From NCBI GenBank assembly GCA_002085155.1, contig NASX01000004.1:62001-126000 (forward strand): DNA of 64,000 nucleotides. Direction: 5' to 3'. Below the pieces are notes generated by a model. The model did no database searches and had not been told where the DNA came from. It saw only the letters and a program-made list of their open reading frames with translations. The position numbers and the translations under genes were made by a program. This DNA is from Sorangiineae bacterium NIC37A_2 (GTDB lineage Bacteria > Myxococcota_A > Polyangia > Polyangiales > Polyangiaceae). The number at the start of each line of letters is the position of its first letter. Positions within the stretch are counted from its first letter, which is position 1. Shown here in pieces: positions 1,074-61,395 of the stretch.

Positions 1074-1778
1074 ATGGAACTCGAATCGAGCGATCGCTCC
1101 ATGTACCTCCGCATGAACGACGTCGTCGACGGATACCGGAGCGAGCTCGCTGAGGTAGCGAGGAAACTGACTCAGGGTCTCGATTCCGACGTCGCAGAAG
1201 CACGGGCGATCTTCGAATGGGTGCGCGATGAGATCCCTCATTCTCACGATATCGGCATAGACGTCGTGACCTGCTCGGCGAGCGAAGTGCTCCGGGAGAG
1301 GACAGGGATCTGCTACGCCAAGAGTCATTTGTTTGCGGCGCTGACTCGGGCGGTGGGGATCCCGACGGGCTTCTGCTACCAGGTTTACTTGGCCGAGCCT
1401 GAGACCGGGAAAACGGCCGTCCACGCCTTCAATGCCGTGTATTTGGCGAGCCATAGGCGCTGGCTTCGGCTCGATGCCCGGGGCAACACGGGAGAAATCG
1501 ACGCCCAGTTCGATCTCGAGCGGGAACGGCTCGCCTTCCCTGTTGATCCGGACAAGGGTGAGCTGTTCATTTACGACGGGGTCTTCTGTGAGCCAGCCCC
1601 GGAAGTGGTTGAAGCACTTCGGCGTCACAAGCGGCGCAGTGAGCTCTGGCTGGACCTGCCGGAGCTCTTGGCCGACGAGCGTCTCTGTCCAGCGGACCGC
1701 GAGAAGAACCAGACCGTCCCGAGGCGAAGGCGGGTCGCAGCGCGCAGCCCCCAGGCCCATCTCCTCAATGACTCATGA
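1074..1778 (+). CDS. Transglutaminase-like superfamily protein
   Basis: 234 residues. The papain-like core has the Cys in RTGICYAKSHLFAALTRAVG, the His in AVHAFNAVYL and the Asp in WLRLDARGN, matching the Cys-His-Asp triad and the order of the transglutaminase-like family (PF01841). The GIPTGFCYQ strand between Cys and His is typical. No signal peptide or membrane segment is seen, so it is probably cytoplasmic and may act as a peptidase or amidase; substrate unknown. ATG at 1074 is preferred because the conserved region starts soon after it and the longer upstream frame runs into the divergent SDR promoter. The C-terminus is Arg-rich (KNQTVPRRRRVAARS). Confidence 0.85.
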   Translation: MELESSDRSMYLRMNDVVDGYRSELAEVARKLTQGLDSDVAEARAIFEWVRDEIPHSHDIGIDVVTCSASEVLRERTGICYAKSHLFAALTRAVGIPTGFCYQVYLAEPETGKTAVHAFNAVYLASHRRWLRLDARGNTGEIDAQFDLERERLAFPVDPDKGELFIYDGVFCEPAPEVVEALRRHKRRSELWLDLPELLADERLCPADREKNQTVPRRRRVAARSPQAHLLNDS

Positions 1779-37490: not shown

Positions 37491-39155
37491 ATGGCGAACA
37501 TCGAAGCCCTCCCTCTTCTCCCCCAGGTAGCACAATACCAGGCGCTGGCCGCTGAAAAGGCGCGCCTAGACGGCGTCAGCCTTCGCGATTTGTTCGCGGC
37601 CGATCAGGGGCGAGCGACGAAGTTCAGCGCAAGTGGCGCCGGGATCTTCCTGGACTACTCGAAGAACCTCGTAGATGAGCGCACGATGAGCCTTTTGTTC
37701 GAGCTGGCGCGGGCCAGGCGATTGCCCGAGGCGCGCGATGCGATGTTCGAAGGCGCCAAGATCAATCTTACGGAGGGACGCTCTGTTCTCCATACCGCGC
37801 TTCGTCTGCCAAAGAACAAGAAGCTCGAGGTCGACGGACAGGACGTCGTCCGAGATGTCCACGAAGTTCTCGAGCGCATGCGGATCTTCGCCGACAAGGT
37901 GCGGAAGGGAGAGCACCTCGGGCACACCGGCAAGCGCATCAAGAACATCGTCAATATCGGCATCGGCGGTTCAGATCTTGGGCCGCTCATGGCCTACGAG
38001 GCGCTCAAGAGCTATTCGACCCGGGAGTTCACCGTCCGCTTCATCTCAAACGTCGACGGCACCGATTTCGCTGAAAATACCCGAGATCTGGACATCGCCG
38101 AGACCCTTTTCATCGTCTGCTCGAAGACCTTCACGACGCTCGAGACCCTGGCGAACGCTCGTCTTGCCCGAGAGCTCGTCGTCTCTTGGTTCGAGTCGGA
38201 AGACGCCGTCGGCAAACATTTCGTCGCCGTCTCCACGAACCGCGACGCCGTGGTCAAGTTCGGCATTCAGCCCGAGAACATGTTCGGATTCTGGGACTGG
38301 GTCGGCGGACGCTACTCGTTCGAATCGGCGATCGGTCTGTCGCTCATGCTCGCGATTGGCCCGGATCACTTCGACGAGCTCCTCAGCGGGCTCCACGACA
38401 TGGACGAACACTTCCGGACGGCGCCGCTCGAAGAGAACCTTCCGGTGATCCTCGCCCTGTTAGGCCTTTATTACAACAACTTCCACGGCGCCGCGAGTCA
38501 CGCGGTGCTGCCCTACGACCAATATCTGAAACGGTTTCCGGCCTACCTCCAGCAGCTCGACATGGAGAGCAACGGTAAGCGAGTGACCCGCGGCGGCCAG
38601 GCGGTCAACTACGAGACAGGCCCGATCATCTGGGGTGAACCCGGAACGAACGGGCAGCACGCCTTTTACCAGCTGATTCACCAAGGCACGAAGCTCGTCC
38701 CCGCTGATTTCATCGGCTTCGCCCGCAGTCACAACCCGCTGTCAGACGGCGACACAACGATGCACGACCTGCTCATGGCGAACTACTTCGCTCAGACCGA
38801 GGCGCTCGCCTTCGGTAAGACAGAGGAGGAAGTGAAAGCCGAGGGGACTCGCGCCGATCTCGTGCCGCACCGCGTGTTCCCCGGGAACCGCCCGACGAAC
38901 TCCCTGTTGATGGAACGTCTGACGCCCCACGCGCTGGGAGCGCTCGTTGCACTCTATGAGCACAAGGTCTTCGTTCAGGGCGTGCTTTGGGACGTCAATA
39001 GCTTCGATCAGTGGGGCGTTGAACTCGGCAAGGTGCTCGCCGGTCGGATCGTCCCCGAGCTCAGCGCGAAGAGCGTCGACCTCAAGCATGACGGTTCGAC
39101 GAACCTCCTCATTCAGCGCTATCGAAAGCTTCGCGGCCTCTCCGATGAGAGCTGA
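37491..39155 (+). CDS. pgi: Glucose-6-phosphate isomerase
   Basis: 554 residues, near the family norm. Sugar-binding motifs [44 protein letters not shown], and the catalytic region [20 protein letters not shown] with [11 protein letters not shown] and [19 protein letters not shown]-terminal signature [16 protein letters not shown]. It interconverts glucose-6-phosphate and fructose-6-phosphate in glycolysis. ATG at 37491. The start of the next gene overlaps its end by 11 nt, unusual given the unrelated product. Confidence 0.96.
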
Positions 39156-59625: not shown

Positions 59626-60321
59626 ATGTACTTCGATCCTTATTGGTTCATTGTTGCGCTCCCCGGTCTCGCTCTCAGCTTCTGGGCGAGCTGGAACGTG
59701 AAAGCGACGTTCAACAAGTATAGCGGCATCGCGAGCCGCCGGGGCTGGACCGGAGCGGACGCTGCCCGCGAACTGATTCGACAGCGCGGCGCCCACGGGG
59801 TTCGCGTCGAAGAGACGCCGGGGTTCCTTTCGGACCACTACGATCCGACCGCCAAGGTGCTGCGGCTTTCTCCCGACGTTTATCACGGACGGTCGCTCGC
59901 TGCGCTGGGCGTGGCTGCTCACGAGGCCGGTCACGCCATCCAACATGCGACTGACTACGGCCCGCTCAAGTTCCGCTCCTTGGTCGTCAAGCCCGCCATG
60001 ATCGGCTCGAACATGGGCACCATGGTCGCGGGCCTGGGTCTTGCGGCGCAGAGCACCGGTCTCGTCTGGGTGGGCGTGATCATGTTCTCGGCGTTCGTCC
60101 TGTTCACCCTGGTCACGCTCCCGGTTGAGTTCGACGCCTCGAACCGCGCGGTGCTCGCGCTCGAGCAGGCAGGCATGATCGATCGCGCCGAGGTGCCTGG
60201 AACGCGCGCCGTGCTGCGCGCGGCGGCGATGACCTATGTCGCGTCCGCTCTCTCCGCCATTATGCAGCTGCTCTACTTCCTCTGGAGAGCAGGGGTCTTC
60301 GGCGGCCGCCGCGACGATTGA
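59626..60321 (+). CDS. YugP-type zinc metallopeptidase (neutral zinc metallopeptidase)
   Basis: 231 residues. N-terminal helix (WFIVALPGLALSFWASWNV), a zinc motif HEAGHAIQH in LGVAAHEAGHAIQHATDYG, and C-terminal helices (VWVGVIMFSAFVLFTLVTL, ALSAIMQLLYFLWRAGVF). The LPVEFDASNRAVLAL segment is the third-ligand region of YugP-family (PF04298) proteins. Membrane-embedded protease; substrate unknown. Its start shares bases with the ATG of the divergent gene. Confidence 0.93.
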   Translation: MYFDPYWFIVALPGLALSFWASWNVKATFNKYSGIASRRGWTGADAARELIRQRGAHGVRVEETPGFLSDHYDPTAKVLRLSPDVYHGRSLAALGVAAHEAGHAIQHATDYGPLKFRSLVVKPAMIGSNMGTMVAGLGLAAQSTGLVWVGVIMFSAFVLFTLVTLPVEFDASNRAVLALEQAGMIDRAEVPGTRAVLRAAAMTYVASALSAIMQLLYFLWRAGVFGGRRDD

Positions 60322-60427: not shown

Positions 60428-60501
60428 GCGCTCGTAGCTCAGCTGGATAGAGCATCGGACTTCTAATCCGACGGTCAGTGGTTCGAATCCACTCGAGCGC
60501 G
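60428..60501 (+). tRNA. tRNA-Arg (anticodon TCT)
   Basis: Acceptor GCGCTCG (60428-60434) pairs with CGAGCGC (60494-60500). Anticodon loop CTTCTAA on stem TCGGA/TCCGA gives anticodon TCT. T-arm GTGG-TTCGAAT-CCAC. CCA is encoded at 60502-60504. Confidence 0.95.
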
Positions 60502-61395
60502 CCAGCGAAGCGGCGCGATCGAGCGGATTCGAACGGAGTCAAAACGTCGAGTCCCCGTGGACGCGTTGACTGGGGGCTCGTCATCGTAGGATGCAGCGAC
60601 GACGGGGAAGGGAAGATCGAGCCGACCGGCGGTTCTCCGTCGGTAGGTGGCGGAGGAGGTAGCGGCGGCAGTGGTGGGGGCTCTGGAGGTGCACCCTCGG
60701 GAGGAATGGGAGGCGGCGCTGGCGCAGCCGGTGAAGGCCCCGGACCCATCGTTCCGGAGGGCGACGTCGCGCTTCCTTTCAATGACGGCTGGCTCGACGC
60801 CGACGCCAACGCTCTCGGGATCCAGGGGGCCATCTTCGGCTACGCCGACGTCCACACGATCGAGACGATCTCGGAGAACATCGCGAGCAACGGCGGGAAG
60901 GCCTGCATCCAAGGCGAAGCGTTCAGGGTCGAGATACCGTGCGAAATCACTGACCCGAATGCGACGGATTGTTACGGTGAGTACTGGGGAGCTGCGATCG
61001 GGCTCAACCTGAATCAGCCGAAGGTGCCCGATCCCGATACCGGAGAGTCCGTCGGCGGGACGCCGGAGCCCTTCGACGCCTCCGGGATCAGCGCCTTCAG
61101 CTTCAAGCTGGATGGCCCCACGATCCCGACCACCCTTCGCTTTTCCGTCGATGGCGGCGACGGCGTTCAATACTGCACGACCAAGGAGACGAAGCTGATG
61201 CCGCTCCCCGCGGACGGGGTCCTCACAGTGAAGCTCGACGACCTGCGCGCCAAGTGTTGGGAGTCTACGGCGTTCGCGAACAATGACGCCCCCGATCGCT
61301 CCTCGATCGTCAAGATCGCCTGGGCTGTCGTTACGGATGACAAGTCAGCGAAGCCCTTCGACTTCTGCGTGAGCGAGATTGTCGCGGTCCCGTAG
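60478..61395 (+). CDS. Lipoprotein gene, probably 5'-truncated at tRNA-Arg
   Basis: The frame is open to 61395 (coding about 305 residues). It keeps a lipobox (LVIVGC), a Gly/Ser-rich linker (VGGGGGSGGSGGGSGG) and a C-terminal domain with Cys pairs (GKACIQGEAF, EIPCEITDPNATDCYGEYWG, CVSEIVAVP). There is no ATG/GTG/TTG in this frame between the tRNA and the lipobox except a GTG inside the tRNA T-arm, and the hydrophobic run before the Cys is only about seven residues, too short for a signal peptide. The gene therefore looks decapitated; the coordinates start at the artefactual GTG. Confidence 0.6.
   Translation: MVRIHSSAPAKRRDRADSNGVKTSSPRGRVDWGLVIVGCSDDGEGKIEPTGGSPSVGGGGGSGGSGGGSGGAPSGGMGGGAGAAGEGPGPIVPEGDVALPFNDGWLDADANALGIQGAIFGYADVHTIETISENIASNGGKACIQGEAFRVEIPCEITDPNATDCYGEYWGAAIGLNLNQPKVPDPDTGESVGGTPEPFDASGISAFSFKLDGPTIPTTLRFSVDGGDGVQYCTTKETKLMPLPADGVLTVKLDDLRAKCWESTAFANNDAPDRSSIVKIAWAVVTDDKSAKPFDFCVSEIVAVP
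60481..60534. repeat. tRNA-Arg 3' end and its inverted partial copy
   Basis: Bases 60481-60503 (T-arm, acceptor 3' strand and CC of tRNA-Arg) are matched by the reverse complement of 60512-60534 at 21 of 23 positions, across an 8-bp spacer. The right arm is an inverted partial tRNA end. Confidence 0.88.

Follow-up and report, generated by a model that had tools for sequence, protein, structure and literature searches.

The tRNA-Arg(UCU) gene of Sorangiineae bacterium NIC37A_2 is followed, after a spacer of 8 nt, by an inverted copy of its own 3' end. Most likely, the arrangement represents a known type of mutation in unusually clean form and is neither the footprint of a mobile element nor a conserved regulator. 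On balance we favor the explanation that the copy is a lineage-specific mutation scar, which probably originated from fold-back (template-switch) synthesis primed at the motif GCGAAGC. The locus provides an example from nature of an essential tRNA to which a single fold-back copying event appears to have added a competitor hairpin, and examples of this sort help to demonstrate that hairpins which change a structure can emerge in a single step. It is also a caution that inverted tRNA ends need not mark mobile elements.

Structure and significance of the inverted repeat

The tRNA-Arg gene with the anticodon UCU and an encoded CCA end (60428..60504, plus strand) was identified with ARAGORN and has an Rfam score of 72.9 bits. 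Its 3' end from G53 onwards constitutes the source arm GTTCGAATCCACTCGAGCGCGCC (60481..60503, plus strand), which comprises the T-loop, the 3' strand of the T-stem, the 3' strand of the acceptor, the discriminator and CC. The inverted copy GGCGCGATCGAGCGGATTCGAAC (60512..60534, minus strand) is complementary to this arm at 21 of 23 positions. Both arms are separated by the spacer AGCGAAGC (60504..60511, plus strand), consisting of the final A of CCA, which lies outside the arm, and the heptamer GCGAAGC (60505-60511). The spacer itself is self-pairing (GC-GAA-GC), so that the DNA hairpin extends over 25 positions in each arm, with the GAA triloop at the exact centre of the inverted repeat, a bulged A of CCA and two internal mismatches. 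A sequence-only reading of this locus had reported a 21/23 inverted match of the last 23 bases of the tRNA located 8 bp downstream, and this is borne out by the arm alignment and the statistics of the window (the whole stretch of 64,000 nt that was analyzed). Its description of the piece as T-arm, acceptor and CC holds for the 3' acceptor strand and CC, whereas the T-arm is incomplete, because the copied piece starts at G53, the base with which the 5' T-stem strand ends.

With 21 matches the repeat exceeds all other pairs of 23-nt inverted arms in the window that are 3-60 nt apart, the runner-up having 18 matches, and the best 23-nt inverted arm match in eight Markov-1 random windows was 18 at most. 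A search with up to three mismatches retrieved the 23-mer exclusively at these two sites of the window, compared with an expectation of 0.01 in shuffled sequences. Among 141 distinct tRNA 3' ends drawn from NIC37A_2, two of its congeners and members of the family, the arm match at tRNA-Arg(UCU) ranks first (21), followed by one value of 19 and others of at most 16. A chance origin is rejected on the basis of these three comparisons, and the inverted repeat at tRNA-Arg(UCU) is real. DNA folding of the hairpin gave a z-score of -6.4 for one strand and of -6.7 for the other. An additional short imperfect inverted repeat (60537..60571; arms 60537-60548 and 60560-60571, 10/12 matches) is located between the copy and the truncated gene described below.

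The polarity of the two mismatches can be deduced from the tRNA itself. The stems of tRNA-Arg(UCU) are fully paired (T-stem AGTGG/CCACT, acceptor GCGCTCG/CGAGCGC), and each of the differences in the copy, which reads CCGCT and CGATCGC in tRNA sense, would break one stem pair. Since both mismatches break tRNA stem pairing, the tRNA represents the source and the copy its drifted partner; judged by this pairing, the two differences are changes in the copy and not in the tRNA.

Distribution among relatives

The gene upstream of the tRNA encodes a Zn_peptidase_2 protein (59626..60321, plus strand; Pfam). Two congeners share the upstream order of a kinase, a leucyl/phenylalanyl transferase-like gene, a ChaN-like gene and the Zn peptidase, the latter named by Pfam and the other three from reading their translations. 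In both congeners no tRNA follows the Zn peptidase and the content beyond it differs; the three congeneric genomes all differ in the genes found downstream. The tRNA-Arg(UCU) gene of the congener G068 is located elsewhere and lacks an inverted copy, but its locus is not syntenic with 60428-60504. The comparison offers no exact empty site, since the tRNA is missing from the equivalent position in the congeners.

An inverted copy is likewise absent from the further tRNA-Arg(UCU) loci read in the family. We also searched for the T-arm motif together with its inverse within 15-45 nt in 108 genomes of the family, 377 genomes across the phylum and 183 genomes of the order (overlapping sets), which retrieved few matches, many of them in non-tRNA DNA. 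According to the sequence-only reading, a copy shared with distant relatives in which no element is present would be a stable feature and would speak against its interpretation; in the relatives read the copy is absent. Among the relatives examined the inverted copy looks private to this genome, which would be indicative of a lineage-specific event. The feature is thus rare, and the cases found elsewhere are apparently independent.

A probable origin by fold-back copying

The order of events that we infer begins with the strand carrying the tRNA sense, which would have ended just past the gene, at GCGAAGC, during replication or break repair. Its end would have folded into the d(GCGAAGC) mini-hairpin and primed its own extension. 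Synthesis would then have left out the A of CCA, used about 23 nt of the tRNA 3' end as its template and switched back, thereby generating a long hairpin fused to the tail of the tRNA. Afterwards selection would have kept the tRNA arm intact, while the copy took two substitutions. The observed product corresponds to the outcome of a fold-back extension, save for one skipped base and the two later substitutions, and a self-pairing seed is present at the turn point. A repair event had been among the options of the sequence-only reading, and it fits the adjacent, collinear inverted copy with its mini-hairpin centre. Under a strict fold-back model a T should face the A of CCA, and its absence from the inverted copy is a point against the model. 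The central position of GCGAAGC is supportive, but it is not proof: the motif is not rare, being present 34 times in the 64-kb window if both strands are counted, and its role was recognized in retrospect.

The individual steps have precedents in the literature. The heptamer d(GCGAAGC) has been reported as an exceptionally stable DNA mini-hairpin with a melting temperature of about 78 °C (PMC4686876). Polymerase theta performs stem-loop extension from two terminal base pairs and slips, and its repair products contain inverted repeats (PMC11292364). Template switching reportedly creates new RNA stems in one step, with mismatches gained later (PMC8794818), and quasipalindrome template switching is an established class of mutations in Escherichia coli (PMC7202029). 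With the mutations of the latter two sources our locus shares the adjacent reverse-complement copy, the near-perfect hairpin, the short stable loop and the later decay. It differs in that the source is the 3' half of the T-arm and the acceptor of a tRNA, which puts the new hairpin in competition with the fold of the tRNA, and in that the case is known without a before/after pair or an ancestral tRNA with its uncopied trailer. The templated insertions from stem-loop extension (PMC11292364) resemble it as short inverted copies of adjacent sequence at a possible rearrangement junction, for which two terminal pairs suffice as primer and slippage is tolerated; they were shown for the human polymerase theta, whereas the present case is bacterial.

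The neighboring gene is relevant in this context. The tRNA is followed by genes for a lipoprotein-like protein, a Mem_trans carrier, an ArsR-type regulator, an AHSA1 protein and a GH10 enzyme. The first of them (60559..61395, plus strand) is truncated at its 5' end: the lipobox LVIVGC is kept, but the start of the signal peptide is missing in all three frames, whereas an intact paralog on contig C13, which starts with MSKLSYSLVSAVALGALLMAC, has a signal peptide. The loss of this start next to a retained lipobox makes a breakpoint at a distance of about 35 bp or less from the inverted copy likely, as judged from the reading frames. The fold-back event was perhaps part of a rearrangement junction, and the inverted copy may belong to the same repair event as the truncation of the gene. 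The loss of the signal peptide could also be an unrelated event.

Mobile elements and the tRNA 3' end

The 3' ends of tRNA genes are classic integration sites, and site-specific integration into them generates direct and not inverted repeats. The explanation that an integrative element or an abortive integration at the tRNA 3' end left a footprint, from which a later inversion or deletion retained an inverted piece, would be in line with the frequent targeting of such ends, the truncated lipoprotein gene and the variable downstream content of the three congeneric genomes. We nevertheless regard it as unlikely, although it fares best among the alternatives, because the repeat is inverted and adjacent instead of direct and the tested neighbors are ordinary genes. 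A direct att-like repeat of the tRNA 3' end was found neither in the window nor in the next 14 kb. No integrase is present on the 179-kb contig, and the five tyrosine recombinases of the genome (PF00589) are exclusively located on C76, C9, C105, C23 and C62. Viral contigs do not contain the 23-mer, even if either base is allowed at the two variable sites, and none of the viral matches to the degenerate T-arm pattern equals the arm length and identity found here. Among the matches listed, those in phages extend over the tRNA and stop at its end or shortly beyond. The similarity to tRNA-gene attachment sites is thus confined to the identity of the repeated sequence as a tRNA 3' end, whereas the inverted and adjacent repeat without an integrase or a second direct copy is different. 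The excised element or abortive integration that had been suggested from the sequence alone is therefore not supported: the orientation is inverted, and a second direct copy, an integrase on the contig and a viral match are all lacking.

Predicted RNA consequences of the hairpin

At the RNA level the hairpin has a predicted energy of -38 kcal/mol, in agreement with the earlier idea that the inverted copy could fold the 3' end of the tRNA precursor, for which the structure of lowest predicted energy is something other than a cloverleaf. If the cloverleaf is enforced, the ensemble is predicted to lie about 15 kcal/mol above the free one with a trailer of 30-40 nt, and with a trailer of 0-10 nt the gap shrinks to 1.6-2.7 kcal/mol; these predictions represent secondary structure without tRNA tertiary contacts, modification and co-transcriptional folding. 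The hairpin may thus burden or tune the maturation of tRNA-Arg(UCU). According to the anticodons of the genome's tRNAs that were examined, a single UCU tRNA is found, which therefore must mature well enough, and early cleavage or co-transcriptional folding would be sufficient.

The same observations lend themselves to the proposal of a selected RNA element, in which the alternative hairpin would sequester the tRNA tail and delay or regulate the maturation of the only UCU (AGA-reading) tRNA. Its attraction lies in the hairpin's predicted lead of about 15 kcal/mol over the cloverleaf for trailers longer than 30 nt and in the single UCU tRNA, but neither conservation nor compensatory changes were found in the relatives examined and both changes in the copy weaken the hairpin, which makes this proposal improbable and places it below the integrative footprint. 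No terminator- or promoter-like site was found near the copy, and apart from the tRNA itself no Rfam family has a credible score at the locus. A regulatory role of the hairpin is possible on the basis of the folding predictions and is unsupported by conservation. The more specific idea that the trailer of the AGA tRNA holds a dominant competitor hairpin acquired in one step, and that 3' processing would be a race able to tune AGA decoding, is quite a long shot.

Remaining alternatives

The copy might instead be what is left of another tRNA gene, located on the minus strand and arranged tail to tail with tRNA-Arg. The minus strand indeed reads as T-loop, acceptor-like strand, G and CC, but the 5' strand of the T-stem is missing, with ACTCC present where AGCGG would be needed, and no covariance-model match of a minus-strand tRNA was obtained even at E-values up to 1. 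Moreover, the identity of 21/23 is to the adjacent tRNA and not to another one, without a better match in the genome, and this origin is accordingly very improbable. An assembly or amplification artefact of a metagenome-assembled or draft genome has a still smaller probability: the assembly consists of 150 contigs and fold-back chimeras exist, but the site is placed well inside a 179-kb contig, the inverted part comprises just 23 nt without a longer inversion of the upstream region, and two mismatches plus one missing base are unlike a fresh fold-back chimera. A two-sided recombinase core comparable to loxP or FRT, with long inverted arms around an 8-bp spacer, would match the geometry of arm, 8 bp and arm, but its probability is negligible, because the spacer itself is a hairpin, the arms are accounted for by the tRNA sequence, no recombinase is nearby and the window contains a single such site.

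Similar structures at other tRNAs

The closest analog was found in G213 (L196), a member of another family of the same phylum, in which a gapped inverted copy is located right after the CCA of tRNA-Arg(CCG). It is centred on the triloop hairpin AAATC-TGC-GATTT and has a predicted energy of -41 kcal/mol. Both cases share the inverted copy of T-arm and acceptor directly after the tRNA as well as the triloop hairpin centre, but the different tRNA, the gapped match and the other centre distinguish an independent event.

A second comparable case lies beside a tRNA-Asn gene of G034 (C256; L186 5297-5344), where what looks like the 3' remnant of a tRNA precedes an inverted copy of itself, and a gene that is IstB-like by eye is located about 1 kb away.

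Several further structures were observed. In NIC37A_2 itself, an inverted T-arm-like stretch with 19/22 matches lies about 45 nt downstream of tRNA-Ser(GGA) (L295 305-392 and downstream; G000:C51 ~38024-38290); the corresponding stretch of the congener G068 has 16/22 matches (L318/L338), and a direct GGGTTCGAGCC is present further on in both genomes. The tRNA was the only feature above the Rfam gathering score in this region. A near-perfect palindrome of about 46 bp is found downstream of the same tRNA-Ser(GGA) (G000:C51:38241-38286; L337 ~522-567), and several members of the family (G051, G056, G028) contain palindromic or repeated counterparts of it. The congener G069 (C119; L183 ~1694-1735, minus strand) harbors a collapsed tRNA-Arg(UCG), which looks like the result of a deletion between TTCGAATCC of the anticodon loop and TTCGAATCC of the T-loop. 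An identical 59-nt T-arm inverted repeat is associated with tRNA-Leu(UAA) in G115 and G240 (L193, L195 1501-1559), two genomes assigned to different families, which suggests transfer or shared contamination. Perfect or near-perfect hairpins on GTTCGAATCCC occur outside predicted tRNAs in viral contigs (L204 7219-7257; L217 118-158). A strong 41-nt hairpin, GTTCAAGCCCTC...GAGGGCTTGAAC, is likewise located outside predicted tRNAs in NIC37A_2 (G000:C34; L182 3433-3473).
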